Assembly (NCBI RefSeq): GCF_029909975.1
Contig: NZ_CP094516.1
Span: 6,138,001-6,202,000 of the forward strand
Direction of reading: 5' to 3'
Origin: Bradyrhizobium sp. ISRA430
Lineage (GTDB): Bacteria; Pseudomonadota; Alphaproteobacteria; Rhizobiales; Xanthobacteraceae
DNA length: 64,000 nt
The notes under the pieces were generated by a model. The model saw only the letters and a program-made list of their open reading frames with translations, ran no database searches and was not told the DNA's origin. Below, piece after piece: positions 2,182-22,051 of the stretch; position 1 is the stretch's first letter; every line of letters starts with the position of its first letter. A program made the position numbers and the translations under genes.

Positions 2182-2257
2182 GCCCAGGTAGCTCAGTTGG
2201 TAGAGCATGCGACTGAAAATCGCAGTGTCGGTGGTTCGATTCCGCCCCTGGGCACCA
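2182..2257 (+). tRNA. tRNA-Phe (GAA anticodon), CCA encoded
   Basis: A 76-nt cloverleaf. The acceptor stem GCCCAGG pairs with CCTGGGC and is followed by encoded A-CCA. The D arm contains AGCTCAGTTGGTAGAGC, the anticodon stem TGCGA/TCGCA encloses loop CTGAAAA with anticodon GAA at 2215-2217, and the T loop is TTCGATT. The final 12 nt (2246-2257) recur at 8149-8160 and 22040-22051, so this tRNA looks like an integration target. Confidence 0.97.
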
Positions 2258-2265
2258 AAGCTACG

Positions 2266-2305
2266 CTTTTCCGCGCCCGAGCACGATCCTGTACGCCGCG
2301 AGCGA
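2266..2305. repeat. Left-end-like repeat L1 downstream of tRNA-Phe
   Basis: The sequence starting CTTTTCCGCGCCC after the tRNA is related to L2 (from 8169) and L3 (from 17836). A 17-nt stretch, GAGCACGATCCTGTACG at 2279-2295, is identical to 17847-17863 in L3. I read these as related element ends. No gene is present here, and the region up to 2384 has no other feature. Confidence 0.6.
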
Positions 2306-2384
2306 TTGCACGAACGAAGCTGTTCTCCTGTTGGCGGAGAAACGACCCGTTCAGAACAACAAATGATCTGCTCCACCCAAGCGA

Positions 2385-3506
2385 TCAGGTCGAGACGACC
2401 CCAGCCAGACGTGTGACCACATCATCGATCTCGTCCGATTTGGTGGTCCTTCCTAAGCTGAAGCGGATCGCTCCCATGCCGATCCTCTCCGGCACGCCCA
2501 TCGCGGCAAGGACGGGCGAGAGCTCGATCCGTCCCGAGTGGCACGCCGAACCAGTCGATGCCGCGACGTCGCTGAGTTGTCCCAGGATATCCGAACCGAT
2601 CTTGCGGACAAATGATACGTTGAGGGTGTTGGGCAAACGATGTGTCGCGTGGCCATTGAGCACGACGTGATCGCCGAAACGATCTTGCAGTGCATGCCAG
2701 AATCTATCACGCAGAGCCCGGACGCGTTCCATGGGAGCGAGGTCCTGCCCTAATGCGGATGCTGCTCCGAGCCCAGCAGCGAGCAATGCGCTCTCCGTCC
2801 CGGCACGGCGGCCCAGCTCATGACCAGCGCCGTGAATCAACGGCTCCAATTCGAGGCCGCCGCGCACGTAGAGTGCACCGACGCCTTTCGGCGCATAGAG
2901 CTTGTGACCAGCGATCGACAACAGGTCGACGCCGAGTTCGTCGACCTTGGTCGAGATCTTGCCGACTGACTGCGCCGCGTCGGTATGAAAACGGATGCCG
3001 TGCTCCCGCGCGATCTCGCTGATCTCCCGGATCGGCTGGATGGTGCCGACCTCGTTGTTGGCATGCATGATGCTGATGAGGGTCGTCTGCGGAGTGATCG
3101 CGCGACGGACGTCCTCCGGATCGACGCGGCCTGTTCGGTCCACCGGGACATGAGTAATCAAGGCGCCGAACCGCTCGAGAAATCGGCAGGGAGCAAGAAC
3201 AGCCGGATGCTCGATTGCCGACGTGATGATGTGCGCCCCTTGGCGGTTCGGCGCGAAGAACGTGCCTTTGATCGCCAGATTGTTTGCTTCGCTGCCGCCG
3301 CTGGTGAACACGATCTCGTCGGGCGCGGCGCCGATCAGCGCGGCGACTTGAACGCGGGCGCGCTCCAGGGCGGCCTTGGTCGGCGTGCTCGCCCAGTGGC
3401 CGCTGGAGGGATTGCCGAAAGCCTCCTTCAGGAAGCGTTGCATCGCCGCCGCGACCGCTGGATCGATTGGCGTGCTCGCGTTGTAGTCGAGATAAATCGG
3501 CGGCAA
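2385..3506 (-). CDS. Cysteine desulfurase, NifS/IscS-type class V aminotransferase
   Basis: This 373-residue PLP enzyme removes sulfur from L-cysteine to form an enzyme persulfide. Visible residues are the SIEH-like His100, HTDAAQ with PLP-contact Asp176, the PLP lysine in AGHKLYAPKG (Lys202) and the persulfide-bearing Cys322 in STGSACHSG. No IscU, SufE or nif partner is adjacent. It is the last gene of an operon with DsrE, SHOCT, MFS and persulfide-dioxygenase-like genes, only 18 bp after the DsrE gene. This suggests a role in handling persulfide sulfur rather than bulk Fe-S assembly. The latter point is inference. Confidence 0.9.
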   Translation of the reverse strand: MPPIYLDYNASTPIDPAVAAAMQRFLKEAFGNPSSGHWASTPTKAALERARVQVAALIGAAPDEIVFTSGGSEANNLAIKGTFFAPNRQGAHIITSAIEHPAVLAPCRFLERFGALITHVPVDRTGRVDPEDVRRAITPQTTLISIMHANNEVGTIQPIREISEIAREHGIRFHTDAAQSVGKISTKVDELGVDLLSIAGHKLYAPKGVGALYVRGGLELEPLIHGAGHELGRRAGTESALLAAGLGAASALGQDLAPMERVRALRDRFWHALQDRFGDHVVLNGHATHRLPNTLNVSFVRKIGSDILGQLSDVAASTGSACHSGRIELSPVLAAMGVPERIGMGAIRFSLGRTTKSDEIDDVVTRLAGVVST

Positions 3507-3524
3507 TGCCAGCTCCTCGGTGGT

Positions 3525-3875
3525 TCAAAATACCAGTACCTTCTCGGCGGAAGCGGTAAGGGTCGCGAGTTCGGCCATGGTGCTGCGTCTCGCGCCATTG
3601 ATCATCTCGGCATCAGTGAGCCCGCGGGCGTCCATGCAGGTGCCGCAAAGCAGGACTTGCCCTTTGCCCGCGAGAACGCCCTTCAGCATGCGCTCCACGT
3701 TGTAGTAGCCGTCTGGCGTCTTCTGGCCCAACTTCGCGGCCACTACCGCGTCAGCCATCAAGAAGACCGTCACCGTGATCGCAGGATCGCTCTTTGCGAG
3801 AGCGAGGGAGAGGCGCAAGGCGTTGTAGGTCCGCTCGGTGCCGTAGGGCGGATCGTTCAGTATCAGCAGAATCAC
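3525..3875 (-). CDS. DsrE/YchN family sulfur-relay protein
   Basis: This 116-residue small alpha/beta protein opens with the strand MILLILNDPPYG and carries Cys77 and Cys80 in LLCGTCMDARG, the position of the sulfur-carrier cysteine in DsrE/YchN proteins. Such proteins accept and pass persulfide sulfur. It lies directly upstream of the cysteine desulfurase, so it may be a sulfur acceptor or donor for it. The family is certain. The partner is inferred from spacing. Confidence 0.85.
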   Translation of the reverse strand: MILLILNDPPYGTERTYNALRLSLALAKSDPAITVTVFLMADAVVAAKLGQKTPDGYYNVERMLKGVLAGKGQVLLCGTCMDARGLTDAEMINGARRSTMAELATLTASAEKVLVF

Positions 3876-3917
3876 GTTCCCTCCTCCGACTAAGCGAGCT
3901 CGAGGCGGCGCGCCGAG

Positions 3918-4280
3918 TTATTCGCCGAGGACGCGTCGCCGGTCCTCGAATTCCGTCTTGTCGATCTCGCCACGCGCAAAGCGCTCCTTGAGAATATCGA
4001 GCGGCGTGCGGGCAGGCGGCAATTGGTTTGGCGGATATGTCCCTGGCCACGGGCCGCCCAGCCAGCGAGCAAGTACAACCGCGAGGGCAACAAGGAGCCC
4101 GAGAAAGAGGATCATGAACAACGGACCGAAGATCATGGCGTACCAGCCTCCGCCCCAGCCCATCATGTGTGGACCCCAACCATAGTAACGTTCGGCATCT
4201 GACGGTCCCTGAACCTGCGCCCACACTGCCCCCGGTAGGAGACAGAGAGCAGCGACCGTTTGGACCAAGACTTTCTTCAT
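3918..4280 (-). CDS. Small membrane protein with C-terminal SHOCT domain
   Basis: I chose the ATG at 4280, which gives 120 residues beginning with a signal-like MKKVLVQTVAALCLLPGAVWA and has a GGAGC upstream. A glycine/tryptophan/methionine-rich stretch (YYGWGPHMMGWGGG) is followed by one hydrophobic helix and a C-terminal SHOCT motif with PLDILKERFARGEIDKTEFE. SHOCT modules are short oligomerisation tails of unknown function. The gene lies within the persulfide operon, 31 bp after the MFS gene. Confidence 0.75.
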   Translation of the reverse strand: MKKVLVQTVAALCLLPGAVWAQVQGPSDAERYYGWGPHMMGWGGGWYAMIFGPLFMILFLGLLVALAVVLARWLGGPWPGTYPPNQLPPARTPLDILKERFARGEIDKTEFEDRRRVLGE

Positions 4281-4311
4281 GGGCTTGCTCCAGCATTGAA
4301 GAACCCAAACT

Positions 4312-5604
4312 CTACTCCGCCGGTCGGCCCGCGTTTTGCGCCAGGTCAACCGAGCCAGCCGCACGTTCGCGCATCAAGACAGCCACGGCGGCGCCGGAGA
4401 TGAACGTCAGGGCGGCGATCGAAACGATCGCTGCTGCAAGTCCAAATCTGTCCGCGATAATGCCCGCCGACAGCGCCCCGATCGCGTAGCCGAGATCGCG
4501 CCAGAAGCGGTAGACGCTGAGCGAGCGCGCCCGCCAGCTCGGATGCGAGGCATCGGACACCGCGGCGATCAGGCTCGGATACACCATGGCCGTACCGACA
4601 CCGAGCAGCAGGCTGCCGACCAGCCACCACTCGAAGTGACTGGTCGCGGCCGTCAGGAACAGGCCGGCGGCCTGAATCCACATGCCGGCTGCGATCAGGC
4701 CCTTGCGGCCCCAGCGGTCGGACAGAGGACCCGTGGCGACCTGCAGGATGCCCCAGACTGCCGGGTAGACCGCCTTCAGGACCCCGATGCGTTCGACCGA
4801 AAGACCAAAGGACACGAAGAACAGCGGGAAGATGCCCCAGCTCATGCCGTCGTTGAGGTTGTTGACGAGGCCGGCCTGGGACGCCGCGAACAGGTTGCGA
4901 TCCCTGAAGGAGGTGAGGAGGAATATCTCCTTGAAGCTGATTGGAGCGGCCTGCCGGGCGTGCCCCGCCGTCTCCAACCGCACATGCTCGCGCGTGTCGC
5001 GCACCAGCAGAATGGAGAGGGCCAAGCCGAGGATCGCGTAGGCAACGCCGAGGTAGATCGGCGCCGGCCGCAGCCCGTATTCCGACGCAATGTACCCGGT
5101 GAGATAGGCGGTCACGCCGACCGCGAGATAGCCGGCGAACTCGTTCAGGCCGACAGCGAGTCCGCGCGACTTCGGCCCAACCAGATCGATCTTCATGATC
5201 ACGGTCATCGACCAGGCAAAACCCTGGTTGATGCCGAGAAGCGCGTTTGCGGCAATGACCCACGTCCAGCTCGGCGCCCAAATGATCATGAACGGCACCG
5301 GCAGCCCGGCGAGCCAGCCCAGGACGAGGACACGCTTGCGCCCCCAGTTGTCGGCGAGTTGCCCGGACACCAGATTGGCGCACGCCTTCACGACGCCGAA
5401 GCTGACGATGAAGGACATGACAAACGTGGTCGTCTCGACCCTGAATTCCTCGGCACCGATCAGCGGCACGACGGTGCGCTCGATCCCGACCATGCCGCCG
5501 ACGAAAGCGTTGATGAGGACGAGTAGCGCGAATTGCGGCCAGTTCTCCTTCAGTCCCAGCCTGACCGATGTGGCCGCTTGTGACGCGGATACGGCTTCGC
5601 TCAT
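4312..5604 (-). CDS. MFS transporter of the persulfide operon
   Basis: This 430-residue integral membrane protein has about 12 hydrophobic segments. The MFS A-motif appears between helices 2 and 3 as GQLADNWGRKRVL and again in the second half as GPLSDRWGRKGLI. It starts 4 bp after the stop of the metallo-hydrolase gene, so the two are almost surely co-transcribed. Substrate is unknown. Given the sulfur genes around it, export of sulfite, thiosulfate or another sulfur species is a reasonable guess but not shown. Confidence 0.85.
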   Translation of the reverse strand: MSEAVSASQAATSVRLGLKENWPQFALLVLINAFVGGMVGIERTVVPLIGAEEFRVETTTFVMSFIVSFGVVKACANLVSGQLADNWGRKRVLVLGWLAGLPVPFMIIWAPSWTWVIAANALLGINQGFAWSMTVIMKIDLVGPKSRGLAVGLNEFAGYLAVGVTAYLTGYIASEYGLRPAPIYLGVAYAILGLALSILLVRDTREHVRLETAGHARQAAPISFKEIFLLTSFRDRNLFAASQAGLVNNLNDGMSWGIFPLFFVSFGLSVERIGVLKAVYPAVWGILQVATGPLSDRWGRKGLIAAGMWIQAAGLFLTAATSHFEWWLVGSLLLGVGTAMVYPSLIAAVSDASHPSWRARSLSVYRFWRDLGYAIGALSAGIIADRFGLAAAIVSIAALTFISGAAVAVLMRERAAGSVDLAQNAGRPAE

Positions 5605-5608
5605 GGCG

Positions 5609-6349
5609 TCAGGCCGCAGCAGCAGTGACGCCTGAATTGGCGGCTCTGATCTTCGCGGCCTCCGGCGGGGCCGGTGGAATCTCGGCGACCATGAACCGGA
5701 CGAATTCGGCCTCGTCCGCGATCACTAAGGCCTGGTTGTGCCGCTTCTCGAAGCCGATCGTGGACCACGGCTTGCCGCTCAGCCGACGGCCGCAAACCGA
5801 ACCCGCATAGGCGCCGGGCAGTACCTCGACGTAATCAGGCAAGCCCTTCAGCTTGCGCACGCTGCGGAACAGTTGCTTGGCGCCTTCTTCGGCGCTGGCG
5901 GCGAGCTCGGTACGGCCGAGATCGCCGACCATCAGAGTGTGGCCGGTCAGGACGAACCAGGGCTCGTTCGCGCGCGTCCGGTCGGTCACAAGAATGCAGA
6001 TGTGCTCGGGTGTGTGACCCGGCGTGTGGAGAACGGTCGCCGTGACGTTGCCAAGCGTAAGGACGTCGCCGTCGCCAACCCCCTTGAACGGAAACAACAC
6101 ACCCGCGTTCGATGAGAGCACGTAGGACGCCCCCGCTGCGTCCGCGAGAGCCCGTCCCGCCGAGAGGTGGTCGGCATGAACATGCGTGTCGATGACGAAG
6201 TGAATGCGCATGCCGGCATTGTCGGCGGCTTGCAGATAGGGCTGGATGTCGCCGACAGGGTCGACGACCGCGCCGGCCGCCTTGCCGCCGCAGCCGAAGA
6301 GGTAGGAAATGCCGATGGGCTCGCTATGCAAGAACTGGCGGAGGATCAT
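5609..6349 (-). CDS. MBL-fold hydrolase, persulfide-dioxygenase (ETHE1/Blh)-like
   Basis: This 246-residue metallo-beta-lactamase fold protein has the metal motif THVHADH (His56, His58, Asp60, His61) and TPGHTPEH with His112. The family includes ETHE1 and bacterial Blh, iron enzymes oxidising glutathione persulfide to sulfite. The TGD motif that carries the third iron ligand in ETHE1 reads TGH here (136-137), followed by an Asp in VGDLGR (Asp143), so activity should be tested rather than assumed. It is the first gene of a five-gene operon divergent from an ArsR-rhodanese regulator, the same logic as bigR/blh loci. Confidence 0.82.
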   Translation of the reverse strand: MILRQFLHSEPIGISYLFGCGGKAAGAVVDPVGDIQPYLQAADNAGMRIHFVIDTHVHADHLSAGRALADAAGASYVLSSNAGVLFPFKGVGDGDVLTLGNVTATVLHTPGHTPEHICILVTDRTRANEPWFVLTGHTLMVGDLGRTELAASAEEGAKQLFRSVRKLKGLPDYVEVLPGAYAGSVCGRRLSGKPWSTIGFEKRHNQALVIADEAEFVRFMVAEIPPAPPEAAKIRAANSGVTAAAA

Positions 6350-6388
6350 GGACTTGCACTCCTCTCAAAGAGCGGCTAGTGATATTCA

Positions 6389-6406
6389 ATCAATCTGCTG
6401 ATTGAT
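6389..6406. promoter_or_regulatory. Candidate operator for the ArsR-rhodanese regulator
   Basis: The intergenic region between the divergent hydrolase and regulator genes holds an AT-rich inverted repeat, ATCAAT-CTGCTG-ATTGAT, inside a longer AT-rich tract (6382-6412). An AT-rich palindrome in a divergent promoter is where an ArsR-family repressor would be expected to bind. It ends 16 bp before the chosen GTG start of the regulator. Confidence 0.5.
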
Positions 6407-6422
6407 ATATTCAGGAGCTGCC

Positions 6423-7091
6423 GTGTCAAGTGCCGGACCGAAACACGCGATTTATGAGAACCTCGCCGAGGTGGCGCAGGCGTTGGGCCATCCGCATCGG
6501 CTTGAATTATTGGAGCATCTCGCCCAGCGGGTGCGCAGCGTCGAGGAGCTGTCGGCCCGCGCCCATCTGACGTTCGCCAACACCTCGCGCCACCTGCAGA
6601 TCCTCAGGCGTGCACGCCTCGTCGAGACGGAGCGTCGCGGTAAACATGTTCTCTATCGCCTGGCCGGCGATACCGAAGTGGTCGCGCTGATGAAGGCGCT
6701 AGGTCGGGTCGGCGAGCGGAATGTCGCCGAGATCGGCCGCGTCGTGACCGACTACTTCCACGCCCGCGACGCGCTCGAACCGGTCTCGCGAGATGATCTG
6801 GTCGCAAGATTGCACGACGATCTGGTCACCGTGCTCGATGTCCGTCCTGATGACGAGTTCGCTCTTGGCCATCTGCCGGGCGCGCTCAACATCCCGCTTG
6901 GCGAACTGGAACGACGGCTCGGCGAACTTCCGAAGGGGCGCGAGGTGGTCGCCTACTGCCGCGGCCCCTACTGCGTCCTTTCGTTCGAAGCGGTCGCAAC
7001 GCTCCGGGCCCAAGGCTATCGCGTCCGCCGGCTCGAGGACGGCTATCCCGAATGGAAAGCCGCCGGCCTGCCGGTCGAAGCCCTCGCTTGA
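6423..7091 (+). CDS. ArsR-family regulator fused to a rhodanese domain
   Basis: The 222-residue product has an N-terminal winged helix (about 8-95, with recognition region FANTSRHLQILRRARLVE) and a C-terminal rhodanese domain (about 125-218) with CRGPYC, catalytic Cys179 and Cys184. The fusion is a known architecture for sensing reactive sulfur through cysteine persulfidation. I chose GTG 6423 because AGGAG sits 5 bp upstream. An upstream TTG at 6402 lies within the palindrome and lacks a ribosome site. It probably represses both itself and the divergent persulfide operon. Confidence 0.85.
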   Translation: MSSAGPKHAIYENLAEVAQALGHPHRLELLEHLAQRVRSVEELSARAHLTFANTSRHLQILRRARLVETERRGKHVLYRLAGDTEVVALMKALGRVGERNVAEIGRVVTDYFHARDALEPVSRDDLVARLHDDLVTVLDVRPDDEFALGHLPGALNIPLGELERRLGELPKGREVVAYCRGPYCVLSFEAVATLRAQGYRVRRLEDGYPEWKAAGLPVEALA

Positions 7092-7112
7092 GACAAGCCG
7101 ATCAGGTGCATC

Positions 7113-7946
7113 ATGGATGATAAGCCTCATCGCGCAGAAGCCGCGTGGCCGATTGTCGGCCTCAAGGACCACAACGCGCCCTCGGTCTTTCGGCCCGAAG
7201 CGCTGTTGAGGGAGGCGCGCCGGCAGAGGCAATTGCCGCTCGCCACTGTCCCGGAGCTTTGCGTCCTCGATCCGGACGGTGACGTCGTCCGTCACCTCAA
7301 GCGGACCGGCGCCGGCCGTGTCCATGAAGGCTGGGCCTGCTATCACACGGAGCTTCTTGCCTTCGATCTCGACGGCTTGGGCGAGGTTGGGATCGTCGGC
7401 TGCGCCGTGGGCGCGCCGTTCGCCGTGCTGGTCGCCGAGCAACTTTTCGCGTCCGGCTGCCGGCTGCTCGTCAGCGTCACGTCAGCCGGACAAATCACTC
7501 CGATCGGGCCGACGCCGTACTTCGTGCTCATCGACCGCGCGCTGCGCGACGAGGGGACGAGCTATCATTACCTACCGGGCTCGACCTTCGCCGAAGCACC
7601 TGACGCGTCGCTACTCACGAATGTCGAGCAGGCCGGGTGGGCTCTGCCGGGCATCACGATGCATCGGGGCGCAACGTGGACGACCGATGCCCCCTATCGC
7701 GAGACCGAGGCCGCCATCTCGCGAGCGCGGGATCTGGGCGCGCTCGCCGTCGAGATGGAGGCCGCCGCTCTCTATGCCTTCAGCGCGAAGAGCGGCAGTC
7801 CCGTCGTCTGTTTTGCGCACGTCACGAATGCGATGGCGCAGACGGAAGGCGATTTCGAGAAGGGCGAGGCCGATGGCGCGAAGGCGACGCTTGCGGTTGT
7901 CGCTGCCGCGATTCGGGGATGGTCAGCTACTCCTAGGCCAAGTTGA
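7113..7946 (+). CDS. Nucleoside phosphorylase family protein (uridine phosphorylase-like)
   Basis: This 277-residue protein resembles the PNP/UDP family. GRVHEGWACYHTE, the glycine-rich VGIVGCAVGAPFAVLVAEQL, and VEMEAAALYAFSA match the purine/uridine phosphorylase core, the last containing the Met-Glu pair that binds the ribose. It would cleave a nucleoside or a related thio-nucleoside with phosphate. It lies 21 bp after the ArsR-rhodanese gene, so it may be co-regulated. A link to methylthioadenosine-type sulfur recycling is possible but speculative. Confidence 0.75.
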   Translation: MDDKPHRAEAAWPIVGLKDHNAPSVFRPEALLREARRQRQLPLATVPELCVLDPDGDVVRHLKRTGAGRVHEGWACYHTELLAFDLDGLGEVGIVGCAVGAPFAVLVAEQLFASGCRLLVSVTSAGQITPIGPTPYFVLIDRALRDEGTSYHYLPGSTFAEAPDASLLTNVEQAGWALPGITMHRGATWTTDAPYRETEAAISRARDLGALAVEMEAAALYAFSAKSGSPVVCFAHVTNAMAQTEGDFEKGEADGAKATLAVVAAAIRGWSATPRPS

Positions 7947-7972
7947 ACCGCCAGGGGAGGGGACAAGGGGCG

Positions 7973-8148
7973 GCTTCAGCAGGCTATAAAGACGCTTTCC
8001 AGCGGGCCAGCCTGCCCCGGCGATGAGAAAAGCTCCCGCAATTGTGGGGTTTCGCGGCAGCAAAACTCCGCCACCCTCCCGGGGACTCAGGCCACCATAT
8101 TAAGGACAAACAGCAGCTTGTCTTGTCGGTGATTACGTATGTTCCCCT
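7973..8148. repeat. Right-end repeat block R1
   Basis: This non-coding block is clearly related to R2 at 21845-22039. Shared landmarks in the same order are TTCAGCAGGCTATAA versus TTCAGGCAGGCCATAA, CTTTCCAGCG versus CTTCCCAGCG, ATTGTGG followed by TTTCGCG, CCACCCT, AGGACAAACAG versus AGGACCAAACAG, and ATTACGTATG versus ATTGCGTATG, and both end in CCTCCCTGGGCACCA. The stretch 7947-8330 contains no gene that I can support. Confidence 0.7.
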
Positions 8149-8160
8149 CCCTGGGCACCA
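8149..8160 (+). other. Second copy of the tRNA-Phe 3' end (attachment-like core)
   Basis: CCCTGGGCACCA is identical to the last 12 nt of tRNA-Phe, and the match continues into the flank (AAA-CT-CGCTTTTCC with two mismatches). It ends block R1 and is followed at once by L2. No other part of a tRNA is present upstream, as expected for a distal att copy. Confidence 0.7.
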
Positions 8161-8168
8161 AAACTGCG

Positions 8169-8243
8169 CTTTTCCACGCTGAAGCACGATGTTGTACGAT
8201 CATGCTCGCCAAATGATCGCGGGAAGAGTTCGCGGATTTATCT
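8169..8243. repeat. Left-end-like repeat L2
   Basis: The sequence beginning CTTTTCCACGCTGAAGCACGA resembles L1 (from 2266). It matches L3 (17836-17911) over a longer range, sharing TTTCCACGCTG, AGCACGAT, TGTACGATC, TGATCG and TTCGCGGATTT-like landmarks. It directly follows the second tRNA-Phe 3' end copy. No coding function is visible. Confidence 0.6.
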
Positions 8244-8330
8244 TCCTGGTAGTGCGCGAGTTTCCGTATGTTCGAATCCGGGCCCGCAACCGCCGTTCTA
8301 GCGATGTCCGCGCGACCAATAAGCGCTCCC

Positions 8331-9311
8331 TTACGACGGCAAATCGCGTGGCCTTCGTTTTTTTGGCCGCCCGGAACGATGTAGACCCCGCACTTCCTGC
8401 TGTTGAAAGAGCTCACCGCACACGTCACGCAACCATTGGCTTGCCGGGTCGTGATGGAAGCGGGCGTGCCAATATTGCTTCACCGTAAAGCCGGCGATCG
8501 CCAGCGGACAGTCGAGCACGCGCAGTCCGTAATAGTGAGCCAACGTTTCGCCGATGTGCCTTGGAAGGGTGGCGATCAGGTCAGTCGTGCCGATGATTGC
8601 GGGTAACCCCAAAAAGCCCGGTAGCTCGAGCGCAACGTCAAGGACTATCCGCTGCTCCTGTAGGGCGTCCGCGAGCAACTGATGTCCGGTGCCGGAGCGA
8701 ATGACGACGTGCGCCTCACGCCTGAAATCACTTGCGGTGATGCGGTCGCGGATCCGGGCATGTTTTGCATTCGCCAGGCAGACCCAATCCTGCGGAAAGA
8801 GCGCTTGTTGGAAGTGCCCGGCGTCGAGGTCCGAGATGTAGCCGAGCGCCAGATCGGCCTCGCCAGACTGCAGCATTCGTGGGGTATCGCCGCCGATCTG
8901 CGCCGCCTCGATTCGGATGCCCGGCGCAACACGACGAACGTAGGCGAGGATGGCCGGAAGCAGCGTGATGTGGCTCGCATCCGTCATGCAGATCACAAAG
9001 TGCCGCTTTGCCGTCGCCGGATCAAACTCGGGACGAAGCTCCGCCAGACGCCGCAGCATCTCCAACGCCTGTCTGGCCGTGCCGATGAGCGCCTCGGCGC
9101 GCGGGGTCGGCAGCATTCCCTCCGCCGACCGAGTGAAGAGCGGGTCGTCCAACTCCTTGCGCAGGCGGGCCAGCCAGATCGAAATGGTCGGCTGACTTTG
9201 ACCGAGCTTCTCGGCCGCCTTGGTAACGCTGCCCGTGGCGAACAATGCGTCGAAGAGCCGGAGCAGGCGCGGCTCCAGCAGGTTCGTCTCGGAGGCGTCT
9301 TGGTGCTTCAT
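8331..9311 (-). CDS. LysR-type transcriptional regulator
   Basis: The 326-residue protein has an N-terminal winged helix (LLRLFDALFATGSVTKAAEK, then LGQSQPTISIWLARLRKEL) typical of LysR regulators, followed by a ligand-binding domain. I chose ATG 9311. A TTG at 9323 would add four residues. It is divergent from the hydroaromatic/CoA gene cluster, with a perfect palindrome between them, so it is the likely activator of 9414-17693. The inducer is probably a pathway substrate, not identified. Confidence 0.9.
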   Translation of the reverse strand: MKHQDASETNLLEPRLLRLFDALFATGSVTKAAEKLGQSQPTISIWLARLRKELDDPLFTRSAEGMLPTPRAEALIGTARQALEMLRRLAELRPEFDPATAKRHFVICMTDASHITLLPAILAYVRRVAPGIRIEAAQIGGDTPRMLQSGEADLALGYISDLDAGHFQQALFPQDWVCLANAKHARIRDRITASDFRREAHVVIRSGTGHQLLADALQEQRIVLDVALELPGFLGLPAIIGTTDLIATLPRHIGETLAHYYGLRVLDCPLAIAGFTVKQYWHARFHHDPASQWLRDVCGELFQQQEVRGLHRSGRPKKRRPRDLPS

Positions 9312-9326
9312 TGCGATCTGCAATAA

Positions 9327-9352
9327 TGGATATAAGGATCATAGCATATCCA
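9327..9352. promoter_or_regulatory. Candidate LysR operator
   Basis: A perfect inverted repeat with 7-bp arms, TGGATAT at 9327-9333 and ATATCCA at 9346-9352, separated by 12 bp. It lies in the 102-bp gap between the divergent LysR gene and the first cluster gene. Size, symmetry and position fit a LysR recognition site. Confidence 0.55.
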
Positions 9353-9413
9353 AATACCAGGCGGCCTGCTAGCACGCTTCCAACACCAAAATGGGTGAGG
9401 GAGAAGCGTTCGG

Positions 9414-14161: not shown

Positions 14162-14212
14162 CACCCGGCCGATGGGCGAGCGGCACGCACAACGCCCGAG
14201 AGGAAACGCAAG

Positions 14213-14881: not shown

Positions 14882-14891
14882 GGGGGAGATC

Positions 14892-15548
14892 ATGGCACCG
14901 CATTTTGGTCCTCCTGAGTTCGGTTTCCTGCTGCGTGGGTTGCAATGGACGATGCTGCTTACGCTGGTCGCGTTTGCAGGCGGCTGCACGGTGGGGCTAG
15001 CTGTCGCATTGCTGCGCACCTGTGGTCATAAGGGGGTAGAGCGGGTCATCCGCATTTACATCGGGATATTCCAGGGCACTCCGCTGCTGCTGCAGCTTTT
15101 CGTCGTGTACTACGGATTGGCGCTAACCGGGCTGAAGCTCGACGCCTTCGTCGCGGTGGCGATCGGTTTCACCGTGAACGCCTCCGCCTTCCTTGGTGAG
15201 ATTTGGCGCGGAGCGATACAGGCCGTGCCGCGCGGCCAGACCGAGGCGGCGATGGCGCTTGGACTGCACTATTCGTCCCGCATGCGCGACATCGTGCTGC
15301 CGCAGGCGATCCGCATCTCGCTGCCGGCGACCATCGGCTATCTCGTACAGCTCATCAAGGGCACTTCGCTCGCCGCCATCGTTGGTTTCATCGAACTCGC
15401 CCGCGCCGGTCAAATCGTATCGAACCAAACCTTCCAGCCGTTGCTCGTCTTCGGCGTGGTCGGCGCAATGTACTTCATCCTCTGCTGGCCACTCTCATGG
15501 TGGGGCAGTCGCATGGAGGCCAGGCTCGCCCTGGCCAATCAAAGGTAG
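14892..15548 (+). CDS. Polar amino acid-type ABC transporter permease 2
   Basis: This 218-residue permease is paired with the one 10 bp upstream. The EAA loop reads TEAAMALGLHYSSRMRDIVLP, followed by LVQLIKGTSLAAIVGFIEL, the typical C-terminal half. The two permeases would make a heterodimeric membrane channel. The gene order permease, permease, binding protein, ATPase is complete without gaps. Confidence 0.9.
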   Translation: MAPHFGPPEFGFLLRGLQWTMLLTLVAFAGGCTVGLAVALLRTCGHKGVERVIRIYIGIFQGTPLLLQLFVVYYGLALTGLKLDAFVAVAIGFTVNASAFLGEIWRGAIQAVPRGQTEAAMALGLHYSSRMRDIVLPQAIRISLPATIGYLVQLIKGTSLAAIVGFIELARAGQIVSNQTFQPLLVFGVVGAMYFILCWPLSWWGSRMEARLALANQR

Positions 15549-15596
15549 GAACGGGCGCACCTGCTCAATCACATACAGCCATCATCGGGAGGAGAT

Positions 15597-16424
15597 ATGT
15601 TGTTTTCACTCAATCGTCGCCAGTTCGGCATTGCGCTGCTGACGCTGGGGGCTATCGCCGTCGCAAGTAAATCGCAGGCGGGCACTCTGGAAGACGTTAA
15701 GAAGAAGGGCGTCGTCGTCATCGGCATTCAGGGCGATAATCCTCCTTGGGGCTATGTCGATAGCTCGGGGAAGCAGGACGGCATCGATGCCGATATGGGG
15801 CGCGCCTTCGCTGACTATCTCGGCGTGAAGGCCGAGTTCGTCCCGCTGGCGGTGGCCAATCGTATTCCGGCGCTGACCACAGGCCGCGTAGACATTCTGT
15901 TCGCAACCATGGCCATGCTGCCCGAGCGCGCGAAGGCGGTGCAATATTCCAAGCCGTATGTCGCCAACGAGATCACGCTTGTCGCTGCCCAGGCGACCCC
16001 GATCAATAGCAATGCCGATATGGGCAAGTACGTTATTGGCGTTCCGAGGTCCTCGACGCAGGACACCCAGGTCACCAATAGCGCTCCAGCAGGCACCGAA
16101 ATCCGCAGGTTTGATGATGACGCGGCCACGATCCAGGCGCTGCTCTCCGGTCAGGTGCAGGCCGTCGGCGCGAACAGCTTCTACCCCCAGCGTCTGAACG
16201 CCGCAAAGCCTGAACTTGGGTTCGAGCCCAAGCTTCACTTCACTGCTCTGTACAACGGGGCCTGCACGCGCCTCGGAGAGAAGGAGTGGAACGAGACGGC
16301 CAACGAATTCATCGACCAGATCAAATCTAACGGCAAGTTGGCCGCCTTTTACGCCAAATGGATGAAGGCGCCCGTGCCGATCTTCCCTGATTCGGTCCCA
16401 GGCGTTCCTTTCACAGTCCAGTAG
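15597..16424 (+). CDS. ABC transporter substrate-binding protein (family 3)
   Basis: This 275-residue exported protein starts [18 protein letters not shown], a twin-arginine-like or Sec leader ending near SQA. A GGAGGAG site sits just before ATG 15597. Mature-part motifs [25 protein letters not shown]-like [11 protein letters not shown] and [12 protein letters not shown] follow the family 3 periplasmic binding fold. It captures the solute for the adjacent permeases. The ligand cannot be read from sequence. Context suggests quinate, shikimate or a related acid. Confidence 0.9.
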
Positions 16425-16483
16425 CCACTGCGAGCGGCCGACGCGCGATCCGCGTTGGCCGCCGCCCGATAGCGGAGACCAGC

Positions 16484-17230
16484 ATGCGGGACCAGATCCT
16501 GATCGAAATGAAGAGCGTGCAGAAGCGGTACGGCGGGTACCAAGCTCTCCGCAACGTCGATCTCACCGTGCGCAAGGGCGAAAAGATCGTGCTCTGCGGT
16601 CCGTCCGGTTCGGGCAAGTCGACGCTGATCCGCTGTATCAACCGCCTGGAGGAGATCCAGCAGGGCAGCATTGTAGTGAATGGTCATCGCCTGGACGACA
16701 GCATCAAGGCTATCGATGTCGTACGTCAGGACATCGGAATGGTCTTTCAGAGCTTCAACCTTTTTCCGCATATGACGGTCTTGCAGAACTGTACACTCGC
16801 GCCTATTCGCGCGCGCCGCATCAGCAAGACCGAGGCGGAAGAGACCGCACGAAAATACCTTGAGCGCGTGCGCATCGGTGATCAGGCCGAGAAGTATCCA
16901 GCCCAACTTTCGGGCGGCCAGCAACAGCGCGTCGCGATTGCGCGTGCGCTCTGCATGCAGCCCAAGGTGATGCTGTTTGACGAGCCGACCTCGGCTCTCG
17001 ATCCCGAAATGGTCAAGGAGGTACTCGATACGATGATAGGCCTCGCCAACGACGGCATGACCATGATCTGCGTCACCCACGAGATGGGCTTTGCCCGCCA
17101 GGTTGCTGATCGTGTGATTTTCATGGCCGAAGGCCAGATCATCGAAGAAGGCGCGCCCGACGCTTTCTTCCGCAATCCACAGCACGCCCGCACCAAGCAG
17201 TTCCTTGGTGAGATCCTCGCCCATCACTGA
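16484..17230 (+). CDS. ABC transporter ATP-binding protein (amino acid type)
   Basis: This 248-residue ATPase has Walker [11 protein letters not shown]-loop [17 protein letters not shown], signature [15 protein letters not shown], Walker [13 protein letters not shown] and the switch His in VTHEMGFAR. It powers the two permeases at 14213-15548. The aroQ gene begins 13 bp after its stop. Confidence 0.93.
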
Positions 17231-17243
17231 ACGGAGTTCTTCT

Positions 17244-17693
17244 ATGAGTCGTCTTGTCTACGTCCTCAACGGGCCAAATCTCAATTTGCTTGGCAAGCGC
17301 CAGCCCCACATCTACGGTCACGAGACGCTTGCGGATGTGGAGCGGGATTGCCGAGCGCTAGCCAAGGAGCTTGGCCTGGAGATTCGCTTTCATCAATCCA
17401 ACAGAGAATACGAGCTGATCGACTGGATCCACGAGGCGCGCGAGACGGCTGCCGGCATCGTAATGAATCCCGCGGCTTTCACCCATACGTCGGTCGCCAT
17501 CCTGGATGCTTTGAACACGTTCGAGGGGACAATGATCGAGGTGCACATTTCCAACGTGCACAAACGCGAGGAATTCCGCCACCACTCGTTTGTCTCCAAA
17601 CGAGCTGATGGGGTCATCGCAGGCTTCGGCACTCAGGGTTATCTGCTCGGCTTGCGTCGTGTGGCCAAGCTGCTTGATGAGAAGAAGGGATAG
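17244..17693 (+). CDS. aroQ: Type II 3-dehydroquinate dehydratase
   Basis: This 149-residue protein has [18 protein letters not shown] with the active-site Tyr, [13 protein letters not shown] with the catalytic His, and [17 protein letters not shown], all diagnostic for type II dehydroquinase. It converts 3-dehydroquinate to 3-dehydroshikimate. I chose ATG 17244, with ACGGAG upstream. In this operon it would link quinate dehydrogenase to dehydroshikimate. No dehydroshikimate dehydratase is present in the window. Confidence 0.95.
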
Positions 17694-17699
17694 CATCGT

Positions 17700-17835
17700 A
17701 TGAGTGCACCCGTCCCCCTGTCAGTGATGGGAGCGGGTCTCATCGGCAAGCGGCACATCGAACACGTTCTCGCGCGGCCGGAGGCGATATTGTCGTCGAT
17801 CGTCGATCCGACGCCGGTGGCCCGAGAGTTGGCGG
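17700..17835 (+). pseudogene. Truncated Gfo/Idh/MocA-type oxidoreductase
   Basis: The first 45 codons encode a Rossmann start, SVMGAGLIGKRHIEHVLARP and IVDPTPVARELA, as in Gfo/Idh/MocA dehydrogenases of about 330 residues. The homology stops at about 17835, where repeat L3 begins, and the frame then runs into unrelated sequence ending at 17978. It follows aroQ by 7 bp, so the cluster originally continued into this gene and was cut by insertion or recombination. Confidence 0.75.
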
Positions 17836-17911
17836 TTTCCACGCTGGAGCACGATCCTGTACGATCGCGTTCGCTGGATGATCGGCGCGAAGGGCGCTCG
17901 CGGATTTCTCC
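17836..17911. repeat. Left-end-like repeat L3 at the truncation point
   Basis: The sequence TTTCCACGCTGGAGCACGAT onward matches L2 (8171-8242) with landmarks TGTACGATC, GGATGATCG and CGCGGATTT. It shares an identical 17 nt with L1 (17847-17863 and 2279-2295). It begins exactly where the oxidoreductase gene stops being recognisable. Unlike L1 and L2 it is not preceded by a copy of the tRNA end. Confidence 0.6.
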
Positions 17912-17978
17912 GCTTGGGGTTCAGAGATCGACGACACTGCTCGGCAACCTGCGCCCCCGTGGCGACGGCGAGTCATGA

Positions 17979-18893
17979 TCAAAGCGAATCGGCGAACTCG
18001 ATCATTCGACGGCGCTGATCGGGATCGGGCAACGGGCCACGCATCGCGCCAGCGTTGTCCGTCATGTGGCTGGGATCGCCGGTCCCGGGGATCACGGCGG
18101 TCACACGCGAGTCGGCGAGCAGATATTTCAGGAAGAACTGTCCCCACGAGTTCGCGAACACTCGCGCCCAGTCCGGCAATTCCTTGCCGCGCACCGCCTT
18201 GAACAATCTGCCATTGCCGTAAGGCAAGGCCGTCAACACGCCGGCTCTGATTTCGGCCGCCAGTGGCAGGATGGCTTTTTCAGCCCCGCGGTTGTCGAGT
18301 GAATAGTCGATCTGGACGAAATCAGGTTTCTCCCGTTCCAGCACGGCCTCGAGCGCGGGATAGTCGCGGCGGAACGTCGAAGTGATGCCGACATAGCGGC
18401 ATAGGCCTTGTTTCTTCCACTCCCTGAAGCGTTCGAGAGATTGTTGCTTGCTCCTGACGTTGTGGAGCTGCAGCAGATCAACGCTTGCGGTCTTCAGTCG
18501 AGCCAGGGATCGCTTGAGTTCCCGGGCGTCGGGCGACTCGAGCTTGGTGGCGAGGAAGAGCTTGTCGCGCAGTCCTGCCGTTGCCGTGACCTGGCCCAGC
18601 ACGCTCTCCGCGTCGCCGTAGGTTGACGCCGTGTCGATCAGCCGTCCGCCATTCTTGATCAGCGCCTGCACGATCGCATCGGCCTTGCTGCGGGTCGCTT
18701 CGTTGTTATCATCGAAAACATAGGCGGTGCCTAGTCCAACGGCGGGAATGCGCTCGCCGCTGGTGGGAATCGCACGGGTGAGGGGCTGTGTCTCCGTTTG
18801 GGTTTGGGCAACGGCTCTGGTCGATACCAGAAATCCGCCGGTGAGTGCAGCAAGGTCGCGGCGGGTCACTTGGCGGGTCATTCGGATCGGCAT
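17979..18893 (-). CDS. Aldo/keto reductase with twin-arginine-like leader
   Basis: This 304-residue AKR-fold protein has the catalytic set visible: Asp and Tyr in LIDTASTYGDAE, Lys in ATKLE and His in LQLHN. The N-terminus, VTRRDLAALTGGFLVSTRA, has a twin-arginine motif, a hydrophobic stretch and an Ala-x-Ala-like end, suggesting export. Most AKRs are cytosolic NADPH enzymes. Its start overlaps the upstream transporter gene by 16 nt, so they are one operon. The leader may be a vestigial anchor. Protein localisation has to decide. Confidence 0.82.
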   Translation of the reverse strand: MPIRMTRQVTRRDLAALTGGFLVSTRAVAQTQTETQPLTRAIPTSGERIPAVGLGTAYVFDDNNEATRSKADAIVQALIKNGGRLIDTASTYGDAESVLGQVTATAGLRDKLFLATKLESPDARELKRSLARLKTASVDLLQLHNVRSKQQSLERFREWKKQGLCRYVGITSTFRRDYPALEAVLEREKPDFVQIDYSLDNRGAEKAILPLAAEIRAGVLTALPYGNGRLFKAVRGKELPDWARVFANSWGQFFLKYLLADSRVTAVIPGTGDPSHMTDNAGAMRGPLPDPDQRRRMIEFADSL

Positions 18894-20188
18894 GCCGGCG
18901 CTCCTTCGTCATCTGCTTTCGTCGAAAGACGCTCCTGCGTTCGCCCCAGCGCGGTCGAGAGAAGGACCCAGCCCGCTGCGATCGGCAGCGCGCAGAGCGC
19001 GATGGCGCCAAGCTTGAGTCCCAGCGCCTGCAGGCTGTGATAGACCCAGCCATACAGCGCGTCGGAGCCGCGGTAGATCACCACGTCGATCAGGTTCTTG
19101 GCCTTGTACTTTTCCTCGCGTCCAACCACGGTGAAGAAGACCTGCCGCGCCGGATTTGCGATTGCAAAATTCATCCAGCGCTGTGCGACCTGGAGTGCCA
19201 CCACGACCGACAGGCTCGGCGCAATCGCCAGCGCGCCGAAGCCCACGACATAGATGGCGGGCAAAGCCGCGGCCGAAATGCCAGTGCCGAAGCGCTCGAG
19301 GAATGCGGCGGTGGCGAAAACCTGTGTTGCCAGGCTCAAGAGGCCCACCGCGAGATCGATAGCTGCAAACAGGCGGGTTTGCGCTGCCGCGTCGTGCATC
19401 GTTGCCGACACGATGTTGGCCTGCGCGAAATACGCAATCGTCGCGCCAAACGAAAGCAAGCTGACCCAGCCGGCCACACCCACGAGATAGGGCGAGCGTA
19501 TCAGTTCGGACAAGCCTGCGAACGCGCTGCCGCCAATGCGCTGCTGTGGAGCATCTACTTCCGCCGGTGGTTCGGCCACGCGCTCAATTCGCTGAACGCA
19601 GAGCACAGCCAGTTCAAGCAAGATGGCGGCCGCGATCAAGAGGTTGATCGGACCGAGCGGCCCGGACAGCCAGATCGTGATGATGGGACCCAGAAGCCCG
19701 CCAGCCGTCCCTCCAGCACCGATGAACCCGAACAGGCGCTTGCCCTGCTCCGACGTAAAGAGATCAGCCATGAACGACCAGAACACCGCGACCGCAAACA
19801 GGTTGAAGACGCTGACCCAGACGAAGAACACGCGCGCCACGATAACTTTTTCGACGTCCAGGAACAGCAACAGCCAAAACAGAAGGAGGTTGGCGACGAA
19901 GAAGTGGTAGACGATCGGAATAAACCTGATCCGCGGCAACCTCGCCACCAGCGCTCCGTAGATCGGTTGTGCGACGAGCAGGCTGACAAAGGTGGCCGTG
20001 AACAGCCAGGGCAGGTTTTTGGTCCCGCCCGCAATGCCCATCTGATCGCGCAGCGGACGCAGCACGTAGTATGCGGCGAGCAAGGTGAAGAAATACGCGA
20101 ACGACCACAGCGCCGTTTGCCGCTCTCGCGCGGTACCGGGCACCGTGCGCTGCAGCCAGTCGCCGAGAGCCGCTGCGGAAGCCATCAT
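18878..20188 (-). CDS. Nucleotide-translocase-like (Npt/TlcA family) MFS transporter
   Basis: This 436-residue, about 12-helix protein resembles the ATP/ADP translocase-like group within the MFS: YFFTLLAAYYVLRPLRDQMG near the start, FWSFMADLFTSEQGKRLFGFIGAGGTAGG in the middle, and KYKAKNLIDVVIYRGSDALYGW near the end. Members exchange nucleotides in intracellular bacteria, but most free-living homologs are uncharacterised. It sits between two oxidoreductases with export-like leaders and overlaps both, by 4 nt upstream and 16 nt downstream. Confidence 0.78.
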   Translation of the reverse strand: MMASAAALGDWLQRTVPGTARERQTALWSFAYFFTLLAAYYVLRPLRDQMGIAGGTKNLPWLFTATFVSLLVAQPIYGALVARLPRIRFIPIVYHFFVANLLLFWLLLFLDVEKVIVARVFFVWVSVFNLFAVAVFWSFMADLFTSEQGKRLFGFIGAGGTAGGLLGPIITIWLSGPLGPINLLIAAAILLELAVLCVQRIERVAEPPAEVDAPQQRIGGSAFAGLSELIRSPYLVGVAGWVSLLSFGATIAYFAQANIVSATMHDAAAQTRLFAAIDLAVGLLSLATQVFATAAFLERFGTGISAAALPAIYVVGFGALAIAPSLSVVVALQVAQRWMNFAIANPARQVFFTVVGREEKYKAKNLIDVVIYRGSDALYGWVYHSLQALGLKLGAIALCALPIAAGWVLLSTALGRTQERLSTKADDEGAPACRSE

Positions 20189-20934
20189 GGTGCCAGCGAC
20201 AGCTTCTGCCTGAGCTCCGCGGCGCTCACATTCTGACCATATCCCGGCGCGCCGCGCTGAAAGCGGCTCGCATCGGCCAGTTTGCCGACCTCCACCGGAT
20301 CAAAGCCGGCGTCGCGCACCAGTTGCGCTGCGACCTGGACTGCCTCCTGATCATCGCCCGCAATCGGCACCGCGAGCCTGGGGGCGGGCCGCTTCGCTTC
20401 CTGTTCAAAGATCCTGTAGTTGAGCGTGTTGAAGGCGCGCACCAGCCTCGCGCCGGGCAGATACTTCTGCGATGTAACACCGATGCCGCTGCGCTCGACC
20501 TCGTCGGCAATGGCGCCGTCGCGGCTGGCCACGGCGTTGTTGGCATCGAGCACGATCTTCCCCGCCAGCGATTTGCCGTAATCCCTGCTGATCTGCGGCA
20601 GCGCGCCGTAAGGCACGGCAATGAAGACGACATCGCCAAATGCAATGGCCTGATCGACTGTGCCGGCCTGTGCAAGTGGGCCGAGGCGCGCGACGAGGTC
20701 CCGCAACTCCTCCGGATGACGCGATGAAAAGAAGACGGGATGGCCTGCCCCGATCCAAAGGCTGCCGATCGTGCTGCCGACGTGACCCGCGCCGATAATG
20801 CCGATTTTCATCTTCGGACCAGCAGCGTCCTGACCCGATGCGGTCGTCGGTCGGAGCGCCGCCTGGAGGATCAGCGCTCCTGCAGCGCCCAACAGTCCGC
20901 GGCGACCGCGATCAATAGTGACATGCTTGAACAT
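20185..20934 (-). CDS. NADPH-dependent F420 reductase-like oxidoreductase with twin-arginine-like leader
   Basis: I chose ATG 20934 (249 residues). The leader contains RGRRGLLGAAGALILQAAL and ends near TASG. The Rossmann domain begins MKIGIIGAGHVGSTIGSLW, with SSRHPEEL after the second strand suggesting NADP binding, and FNTLNYRIF and PIAGDDQEAV further on. These match the NADPH-F420 reductase-like domain, often an NADP-binding protein without F420. It is the first gene of the three-gene operon. Confidence 0.8.
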   Translation of the reverse strand: MFKHVTIDRGRRGLLGAAGALILQAALRPTTASGQDAAGPKMKIGIIGAGHVGSTIGSLWIGAGHPVFFSSRHPEELRDLVARLGPLAQAGTVDQAIAFGDVVFIAVPYGALPQISRDYGKSLAGKIVLDANNAVASRDGAIADEVERSGIGVTSQKYLPGARLVRAFNTLNYRIFEQEAKRPAPRLAVPIAGDDQEAVQVAAQLVRDAGFDPVEVGKLADASRFQRGAPGYGQNVSAAELRQKLSLAP

Positions 20935-21090
20935 CAGCACACCAGTCGCAAATGACAGCAAACTCGTCGCTAACGTTTCACAGCGCGAAACGTGACATAA
21001 ACTAGCCGTCAGGTATTGGCGGCTCGCGCAGAGTTGATCATTTGCCCCGGATTTCGAACGCTTGCCGCTACTGGCTAGCGGCCGGCGGAT

Positions 21091-21396
21091 CTATCTGGGG
21101 CGGCTCGAGGGAGCGGCATTCGTCTTCGGTTCGGGAATAGGTGGCACGTCATCCTTTACGCTGCACTGTTTGACATAGGACTCTTCCGTCATATCGCGTT
21201 TCATCATCGCTTCCCGATCGGCCCTCCACTCCTCCTCGCAATCCTCAACTGTCTTCGAGCTCTGTCCGTCTGTCTTGTCGGGTGCGGATCTGGGAGCAGT
21301 AGCCGGGTTTGGCTTGGCAGTCTCCGCAAGTGCGGTGCAGTGCAGGATCGTTATCCCAGCAAGTGCGCAAGAGATCAAAAGAAGGTGCCTTTTCAC
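21091..21396 (-). CDS. Small exported hypothetical protein
   Basis: This 101-residue protein has a leader HLLLISCALAGITILHCTAL and a likely cleavage after ALA. The mature part is Pro/Thr/Ser-rich at both ends, with a central helix CEEEWRADREAMMKRDMTEE and a second Cys in VKQC. Small exported proteins of this form are common in rhizobia and have no known function. It is not clearly part of the operon ending at 17979. Confidence 0.65.
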   Translation of the reverse strand: MKRHLLLISCALAGITILHCTALAETAKPNPATAPRSAPDKTDGQSSKTVEDCEEEWRADREAMMKRDMTEESYVKQCSVKDDVPPIPEPKTNAAPSSRPR

Positions 21397-21844
21397 CCTT
21401 CGACTCCTGTCGCCGTATCGCGAAGAACTTTCCTAAACGCTGGGCCAGTCGTGATATCGCCCAAAGCCAATTCGAACTTTTCGCGCCTGTTCCTCCAACG
21501 AACTGTCAGTTGCTGAAACTTGATCGATATTTCTTCATGGCCCACTTCCGACCAAACCAATTTGGACTCGCGTCGGCTCGTTGGGCCAGACCGCGACTGG
21601 TCTATAGGGGGCGGGATCGCGCCCGCTGAGTTAGTTGGCAACCGGCGCCGCGTCTCCGCTTACGTGTTGGAGGTGCTGGTCCAACACCGTCGTGGATCTT
21701 CCGCTTATGCAATGAACCTCGGAATTTCCTGATCGATCAATCGCAAGAAGCGTGTGTTGCGTGCCTCCGCAACCACCGATACTTGTGATATCGGCGCAGG
21801 CGACCCGGAAGGCTCTCCTTTTGCGCTTTGGGAACCAGTTTGCA

Positions 21845-22039
21845 GCGGGTTCAGGCAGGCCATAAGGATGCTTCCCAGCGAGCTGGGCCGCGAGCCAATA
21901 ACGAGCCAATAATAAGGCGGGCTCTCGCGATTGTGGATTTCGCGATGCAGCGAACCTCCACCACCGTGCCAAGCGCTCGCCACCCTGCGAAGGACCAAAC
22001 AGTCGTTCGTCGTGTCCGTAATTGCGTATGATATTCCCT
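21845..22039. repeat. Right-end repeat block R2
   Basis: Related to R1 (7973-8148) along its length, ending in ATTGCGTATGATATTCCCT before the tRNA-end copy. R2 is slightly longer because of an internal duplication: GAGCCAATAA is repeated at about 21892-21912. The similarity of two blocks 14 kb apart, both ending in the same tRNA fragment, suggests the right ends of two related integrated elements. Confidence 0.7.
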
Positions 22040-22051
22040 CCCTGGGCACCA
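22040..22051 (+). other. Third copy of the tRNA-Phe 3' end (attachment-like core)
   Basis: CCCTGGGCACCA is identical to 2246-2257. It is preceded by R2 but, unlike the copy at 8149, is not followed by left-end-like sequence, so it may be the distal boundary of the array. Confidence 0.68.

Follow-up and report, generated by a model that had tools for sequence, protein, structure and literature searches.

The 64,000-nt stretch of the Bradyrhizobium sp. ISRA430 genome analysed here, hereafter the window (contig NZ_CP094516.1, positions 6,138,001 to 6,202,000), carries a single tRNA gene called by ARAGORN, a tRNA-Phe (GAA). The last 12 nt of this gene, CCCTGGGCACCA, form a core that is found at positions 2246, 8149 and 22040, all on the plus strand, and nowhere else in the window. 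Dinucleotide shuffles gave a mean of 0.01 core matches per window, with three matches in none of 100 shuffles. The region 2258-22051 very probably consists of three accessory modules in tandem, named E1, E2 and E3, the outcome of successive site-specific recombination events at the tRNA-Phe 3' end. Each module would be bounded, now or formerly, by a left (L) arm and a right (R) arm belonging to one family of ends found beside core copies, for which we use the name type A. The features of the array are listed below with the evidence for each (G numbers denote genomes; HMM, profile hidden Markov model).

2182-2257, plus strand: tRNA-Phe (GAA), the attachment gene, with its last 12 nt (2246-2257) as the core (ARAGORN, Rfam, core search)
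2258-8160: module E1, fully bounded (Pfam, NCBIfam; core-to-core unit in G081 and G021 at 88%)
8161-17835: module E2, right end lost (Pfam; the G215 copy keeps its right end, 91% over 9.7 kb)
17836-22051: module E3, left core lost (Pfam; separate unit in G215, 94% over 3.7 kb)
2246-2390, plus strand: left end L1 of E1, core plus L arm (alignment, HMM)
7954-8160, plus strand: right end R1 of E1, closing with core copy 8149-8160 (alignment, HMM)
8149-8293, plus strand: left end L2 of E2 (alignment, HMM)
17836-17934, plus strand: core-less left end L3 of E3, matching the L profile from position 23 (HMM)
21838-22051, plus strand: right end R2 of E3, closing with core copy 22040-22051 (alignment, HMM)
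17835-17836: E2/E3 fusion point (comparison with G215, L3 end)

Right and left ends of the modules

Alignment of the sequences leading up to the two distal core copies, R1 (7950-8160) and R2 (21830-22051), gave a local score of 99, compared with a best of 30 and a mean of 17 in 500 shuffles; maxima against random stretches of the window were higher than with shuffles, which is ascribed to stretches overlapping the copies themselves. L1 and L2 match at 84% over 50 bp (score 60, shuffle maximum 26). No L-type sequence follows the third core copy at 22040 (score 24, shuffle maxima 28 and 26), which joins the right flank directly. The original prediction, made on this DNA from its letters, had proposed that the tRNA-Phe tail recurs exactly at 8149-8160 and 22040-22051, that a related block precedes each distal copy, and that a chance origin of the 12-nt match is unlikely; the whole-window core search, the shuffles and the R1/R2 and L1/L2 alignments bear it out on all three points. 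It had missed a third L end, core-less, at 17836-17910, which was recovered by HMM.

The HMMs, built from 19 R and 21 L ends, were searched against 74 sequences (1.34 Mb) and returned 69 R and 64 L matches, all co-oriented when each sequence is oriented by its own hits; the full models had no match on the same 1.34 Mb reversed. Models rebuilt without the copies in the window recovered R1 (1.2e-42), R2 (3.3e-40), L2 (6e-27), L3 (2e-20) and L1 (1.7e-17). The best-supported limits of the R ends are about 7954-8160 and 21838-22051, and in the type-A family L arms extend up to about 150 bp after the core and R arms about 90-200 bp before it. A typical R end reads GTGTCGGTGGTT-GCGTAT-GATTCC-CT-CCCTGGGCACCA, the tRNA counterpart being GTGTCGGTGGTTCGATTCCGCCCCTGGGCACCA, and the R profile also matches the T-arm plus core of tRNA-Phe itself (2222-2257, 2.5e-4, the core being included in that match). 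Taken without the core, 14 of the 19 R copies tested show a diverged tRNA T-arm (matched as well by no more than 10 of 1000 mononucleotide shuffles); for the R ends of the window, likewise without the core, the likeness to the tRNA is not significant alone, shuffles being as good in 35 of 1000 cases for R1 and 721 of 1000 for R2. The view that these blocks are unlike the tRNA body thus holds for R1 and R2, but not for the family, which has the T-arm beside the core.

A second right-end type, ending in GCACCA alone without the full core, was seen in G112, G014, G244, G217, G147 and G043 and at the distal end of G021. Such ends adjoin type-A L arms or chromosomal flank, and the same right flank that follows R2 in the window follows a different, GCACCA-ending right end in G021. 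Their sequence is a hint of strand exchange at or near GCACCA.

Modules in related genomes, their cargo and the right flank

The left flank of tRNA-Phe was matched in 264 of 265 genomes of the genus, and the right flank, encoding DUF1326 and PpoB2 proteins, was matched whole or in part somewhere in 167 of 265. For comparison of the site, 37 relatives were taken in which both flanks share a contig among the matches listed, a choice that is not random. At six of these 37 sites (G069, G143, G025, G088, G114 and G130) the joint was unoccupied, with tRNA-Phe joined straight to the flank, 241-249 bp from DUF1326, and a single core. With the window counted as a 38th site, 19 sites have one or more type-A ends and 13 are occupied by other DNA. 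Because the DUF1326/PpoB2 flank may itself be accessory, the six sites are read as unoccupied at the tRNA-DUF1326 joint and not necessarily as pristine; G021 has another L end just past DUF1326/PpoB2.

The three modules were found in several arrangements. E1 stands alone between tRNA-Phe and the right flank in G081 (two cores, 88%) and comes first (88%) in an array of six cores over 73 kb in G021. In G215, an E3-like unit runs from a core at 341 to a core at 4318 (94%, 3.7 kb) and is followed by an E2-like unit from 4318 to a core at 15049 (91%, 9.7 kb), each with its own ends and in the order opposite to that of the window. The modules behave like movable cassettes, because related species have them singly, with other neighbours or in swapped order, and the site shows alternative or empty occupancy instead of a fixed gene order. 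Compared with G215, the E2/E3 joint lacks about 1.04 kb, comprising the rest of an oxidoreductase ORF (open reading frame), the R end and the core, together with the core-proximal nucleotides of the left arm of E3; the truncated ORF looks like a Gfo/Idh/MocA protein, its candidate identity. Judged from this comparison, E2 and E3 appear to have been fused through deletion. Accretion of accessory segments at tRNA-Phe, as originally proposed, is upheld, but not the count of two segments between the core copies: there are three modules, since E2 and E3 are separate in G215.

The R-core-L junction was matched, in part or whole, in 61 of 265 Bradyrhizobium genomes, and the L arm in 39 of 265; the junction search scored two candidates per genome, so that copy numbers are lower bounds. 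A cross-genus search found matches in 76 of 248 genomes (some of them Bradyrhizobium), mostly of 25-33 bp at one query end. These one-end matches were dropped, being taken as tRNA-fMet genes, and type-A ends outside Bradyrhizobium were accepted in four genomes of two genera: G328, G349 and G425 (g26) and G356 (g43). The exact R pattern had seven matches in a genome contig collection, all titled Bradyrhizobium; searches with exact patterns returned no type-A ends from viral contigs, and none were found in plasmids or phages. Intervals with both type-A ends measure 1.3 kb (G015), 1.8-1.9 kb (G234, G032), about 38 kb (G021), 43 kb (G216) and 50 kb (G328). The 1.8-1.9-kb units contain a single periplasmic-binding-protein gene (Peripla_BP_6, by Pfam on the G048 copy), which is also present in 1.6-kb intervals of G048 and G008 having an R end and a tRNA core with no L arm detected, and in an 8.3-kb interval of G180 having an R end only.

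The cargo of E1 consists of sulfur-transfer and stress-type genes with an ArsR-rhodanese regulator (Pfam, NCBIfam). E2 carries a LysR regulator, shikimate/dehydroquinate-type enzymes and an amino-acid-type ABC (ATP-binding cassette) transporter (Pfam), in the order LysR, ketopantoate-reductase-like protein, MaoC, CoA-transferase III, two shikimate-dehydrogenase-like proteins, ABC permeases, SBP_bac_3, ABC ATPase and type II dehydroquinase, followed at its right edge by the truncated oxidoreductase-like ORF. The mapped genes of the modules are as follows (MFS, major facilitator superfamily; MBL, metallo-beta-lactamase).

2385-3506, minus strand: E1, cysteine desulfurase
3525-3875, minus strand: E1, DsrE-like protein
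4312-5604, minus strand: E1, MFS transporter
5609-6349, minus strand: E1, MBL-fold hydrolase
6402-7091, plus strand: E1, ArsR-rhodanese regulator
7113-7946, plus strand: E1, nucleoside phosphorylase
8331-9323, minus strand: E2, LysR
17205-17693, plus strand: E2, type II dehydroquinase
17979-18893, minus strand: E3, aldo/keto reductase
18878-20188, minus strand: E3, MFS protein
20185-20961, minus strand: E3, F420-oxidoreductase-like Rossmann protein

Beyond the third core copy lie the right flank and a further variable stretch.

22052-23796: right flank, joined directly to tRNA-Phe in six relatives (Pfam, site comparison)
22338-22970, plus strand: DUF1326 (Pfam)
22957-23796, plus strand: PpoB2 copper-chaperone-like protein (Pfam)
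23797-34596: further variable stretch (FMO-like, ABC sugar-type transporter and other genes), outside the attachment-site (att)-bounded array
34597-35421, plus strand: gene with a THAP4-like heme-binding domain, conserved on the tRNA-Phe contig

No R or L end and no core was found within 23797-34596. Among the matches listed for 23.8-34.6 kb, all lie elsewhere in the relatives, except 23800-24385 in G021, and for 34697-35000 each of the 12 relatives tested has a match on the same contig as tRNA-Phe, at a distance of 5-87 kb. By these comparisons the att-bounded array ends at 22051 and the variable region continues to about 34.6 kb; the boundary of the accessory array at 22051 proposed earlier is therefore right for its att-bounded part, but not for the variable region.

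Search for a recombinase and tRNA sequences near the ends

No match to PF00589 was found at the place of the window (6138001-6202000), serine recombinases and relaxases not having been searched as families and not every small ORF having been scanned. The main ORFs of the modules are metabolic, regulatory or transport genes by Pfam, in line with the earlier observation that no integrase is visible. The type-A intervals of relatives that were examined and are bounded at both ends yielded no intact tyrosine recombinase (PF00589 in 12 relatives, among the matches listed; phmmer with about 18 integrase queries). Clustering of the 2346 ORFs of 54 type-A intervals, a set including intervals that run open into a contig or fetch limit and intervals with a single recognised end, revealed no recombinase-like cluster that would represent a recurring mobility gene; representatives of some recurring clusters were assigned by Pfam to LysR, alpha/beta hydrolase, AraC-type regulator, autotransporter, MBL-fold and periplasmic binding protein.

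Integrases or their remains do accompany other left arms at the same tRNA-Phe in twelve relatives, in several groups: G193, G044, G045 and G077 (DUF6538, by Pfam on G193 alone); G032; G260 and G094; the P4-like G011, G038, G079 and G123; and another in G085. They were set aside: their left arms differ from type A, and the visible right arms (G193, G032 and G260) also look different. IntL, a P4-type 506-aa ORF at tRNA-Leu(CAA), has a type-A R end just 3' of the gene or of what is left of it in four genomes (G087, G110, G198 and G121); the same holds for G223 and G132, there with an insertion or an integrase deletion. It was rejected as the type-A recombinase, an R hit being present at one of the 20 best IntL loci (about 1.5 kb searched on each side), and no close relative existing in the genome of the window (best E 2.4e-23). 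In G036, the 53.7-kb interval from a type-A L match (877.9 kb) to an R end (931.6 kb) contains two intact tyrosine-recombinase ORFs (IntA). The two copies, 91% alike, were set aside; they lie beside a tRNA-Arg sequence recognised by eye with no ARAGORN call, and look tRNA-Arg-specific. A parent element may nevertheless lie at 877.9-897.5 kb, outside the stretch read. A 358-aa ORF in G199, which lies about 250 bp inward of an R end located away from tRNA-Phe, was likewise set aside, since its PF00589 match stops at 156 of 172 and it adjoins a tRNA-Lys-like fragment. In the genome of the window itself (G000:C1), seven equal-scoring copies of a 291-aa tyrosine-recombinase ORF (e.g. 1358839-1359324) perhaps represent an insertion-sequence-like element.

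Sequences of other tRNAs recur near type-A ends. L arms ending in a tRNA-fMet-like tail make up 13 of 57 (G021, G234, G014 and G263 among them), most with the tail about 126 bp after the Phe core and two without mismatch to the search consensus; the reversed pattern gave none and 20 shuffled patterns gave 0-2. L2 of the window has a degenerate tRNA-fMet-like 3' end at about 8269-8290, seen by eye and below the match limit of that search. On the tRNA-Leu(CAA) side, the R end and core 3' of IntL at L119, L118, L086 and L227 (G110, G087, G198 and G121) stand in inverted orientation, and no L partner was found within 28-59 kb in G087, G110 and G198. ARAGORN calls a tRNA-Arg gene just inside an R end in G021 and G253 (near 64.9 and 30.1 kb of the joined stretches, respectively); a tRNA-Arg fragment near 33.7 kb of the joined G036 stretches and a tRNA-Lys fragment near 9.7 kb in G199 were recognised by eye. 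Type-A ends may serve more than one tRNA.

Origin of the array and related systems

In the reading that we prefer, the arms would be recognised by a tyrosine recombinase acting in trans and encoded on an element that is co-resident or passing through, strand exchange would take place inside the shared core, and each integration would regenerate a complete tRNA-Phe and add one core copy. Judged by sequence comparison throughout, recombination in trans at the core is the most likely mechanism, and mobilisation of the modules in trans is plausible. Ordinary deletion would have taken the att site between E2 and E3, which would now be mobile only as one unit, if at all. An integron cassette array consists of an integron integrase with attI and of cassettes each with an attC. 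Integron gene cassettes resemble the modules only in how they work, as recombinase-less modules in an oriented, shufflable array; type-A modules are units of 1.3-50 kb at a tRNA. The wider proposal of a genus-wide integron-like cassette system, working at the scale of whole gene clusters, in which modules of one to dozens of genes possess end pairs only, enter at tRNA-Phe and are added, excised and reordered by a recombinase encoded elsewhere, is put forward tentatively, as we consider it improbable on balance.

Decay of formerly autonomous elements is the serious rival. The modules would then be integrative and conjugative or integrative and mobilizable elements (ICEs/IMEs) reduced to cis-mobilizable elements (CIMEs), their recombinase lost, with no mobilisation in trans now and later shuffling by homologous recombination; we regard this as a real possibility, if one with less than even chances. 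Tandem CIMEs have been described (PMC5704250), and integrase genes or remains do occur at the same tRNA-Phe with the other left arms of twelve relatives, in the type-A intervals of G216, G021 and G133 or beside an R end in G199, and as the two intact ORFs between type-A ends in G036. However, no intact tyrosine recombinase was detected in the fully bounded intervals that were examined, even those reduced to a single gene, so that decay would need to have halted just before the arms each time, while the G036 ORFs look specific for tRNA-Arg and the G199 ORF lies beside the tRNA-Lys fragment read by eye. Far less credible is a single old island at tRNA-Phe, eroded differently in each species, with core copies arising by chance or convergence. 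E1 comes first after tRNA-Phe in three species, as such an island would have it, but the swapped order in G215, the unoccupied sites and the unrelated cargo between the same ends speak against it, as does the rarity of the core in shuffles, and the G215 units refute it as the sole explanation; we consider it the least probable of all. Scarcely better are the chances of L and R being repeats of a transposon-like or structured-RNA kind that have nothing to do with tRNA integration: R ends do lie away from tRNA-Phe in some genomes, but R finishes at the tRNA core and L begins there, the core-less R carries the T-arm in most copies, and Rfam found no family other than the tRNA in 1900-22400.

Successive site-specific entry of the three modules has, for its part, several observations to contend with. 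No recombinase acting on type-A ends was identified in the searches above, and remains of integrases are present: an IntL fragment in G216 and an IntA relic in G021, both next to an R end, and an IntA fragment in the type-A interval of G133. Some R ends are distant from tRNA-Phe and yielded no L partner, and R ends beside integrases or fragments of other tRNAs (Leu, Arg, Lys) are left unexplained by the simple model. The ends themselves are uneven: L1 is like L2 over the first ~50 nt and diverged beyond, L arms vary in length, some modules have one recognised end alone, and R2 agrees with the homologous G215 module at 75 of 90 positions at the 3' end only, its 5' half being different. Homologous recombination between arrays could also have swapped modules after their arrival. 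All of these count against the reading that we prefer.

Several known systems resemble the array in part. Tandem accretion and CIMEs of the ICESt1 type are established (PMC5704250). As described there, CIMEs resemble the modules in being bounded by att sites, in lacking genes for integration or transfer, and in stacking up at a target gene's 3' end. E1 is flanked on both sides, E2 is without its right end and E3 without its left core, and no recombination or transfer genes were found by PF00589 and Pfam of the main ORFs, within the limits given for the window, where integrase remains are likewise absent. Unlike CIMEs, type-A modules form a large family with shared ends, reaching down to a single gene, with unrelated cargo and no autonomous parent found. 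The Dehalococcoides ssrA islands, for which the cited account gives an integration module in 16 of 31 and a serine recombinase, are also tandem at the 3' end of an RNA gene, with direct repeats and, beside the repeat, conserved sequence unlike that of the gene (PMC3146451); type A differs in its site, tRNA-Phe, and in that its bounded modules yielded no recombinase. Additive flexible islands, reported from Methylophilaceae (PMC10872708) and Actinomarinales (PMC7771536), have cassettes added at a tRNA that leave direct repeats of its 3' end, and the array has the same layout of a tRNA and 3'-end repeats separating variable cassettes. Tycheposons are likewise cargo islands anchored at tRNA genes, but carry a tyrosine recombinase according to the sources cited (PMC10872708, PMC11389934), and none was found in the window or the fetched type-A intervals. 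ICEMlSymR7A of Mesorhizobium, with IntS and the 3' end of tRNA-Phe as attB, is comparable as a rhizobial element by its target site, not by its arms, and is, unlike type-A modules, an autonomous conjugative element (PMC8627217). In Bradyrhizobium cosmicum, a published account has a tRNA and its partial copy flanking the photosynthesis cluster. Judged mostly by titles, none of the papers listed on Bradyrhizobium tRNA and tRNA-Phe islands describes this array.

Tandem accretion, CIMEs and tRNA-anchored additive islands are thus already known, and the conserved arms, the swapping of modules and the genus-wide family of ends documented here in Bradyrhizobium go beyond what the cited accounts of additive islands describe. 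Type-A ends represent a concrete, recognisable route of gene-cluster exchange in Bradyrhizobium, with mapped ends. The R and L ends make any genome scannable for type-A modules, and hypotheses on how integrase-less islands are moved can be put to the test with natural substrates of less than 2 kb in harmless soil bacteria.

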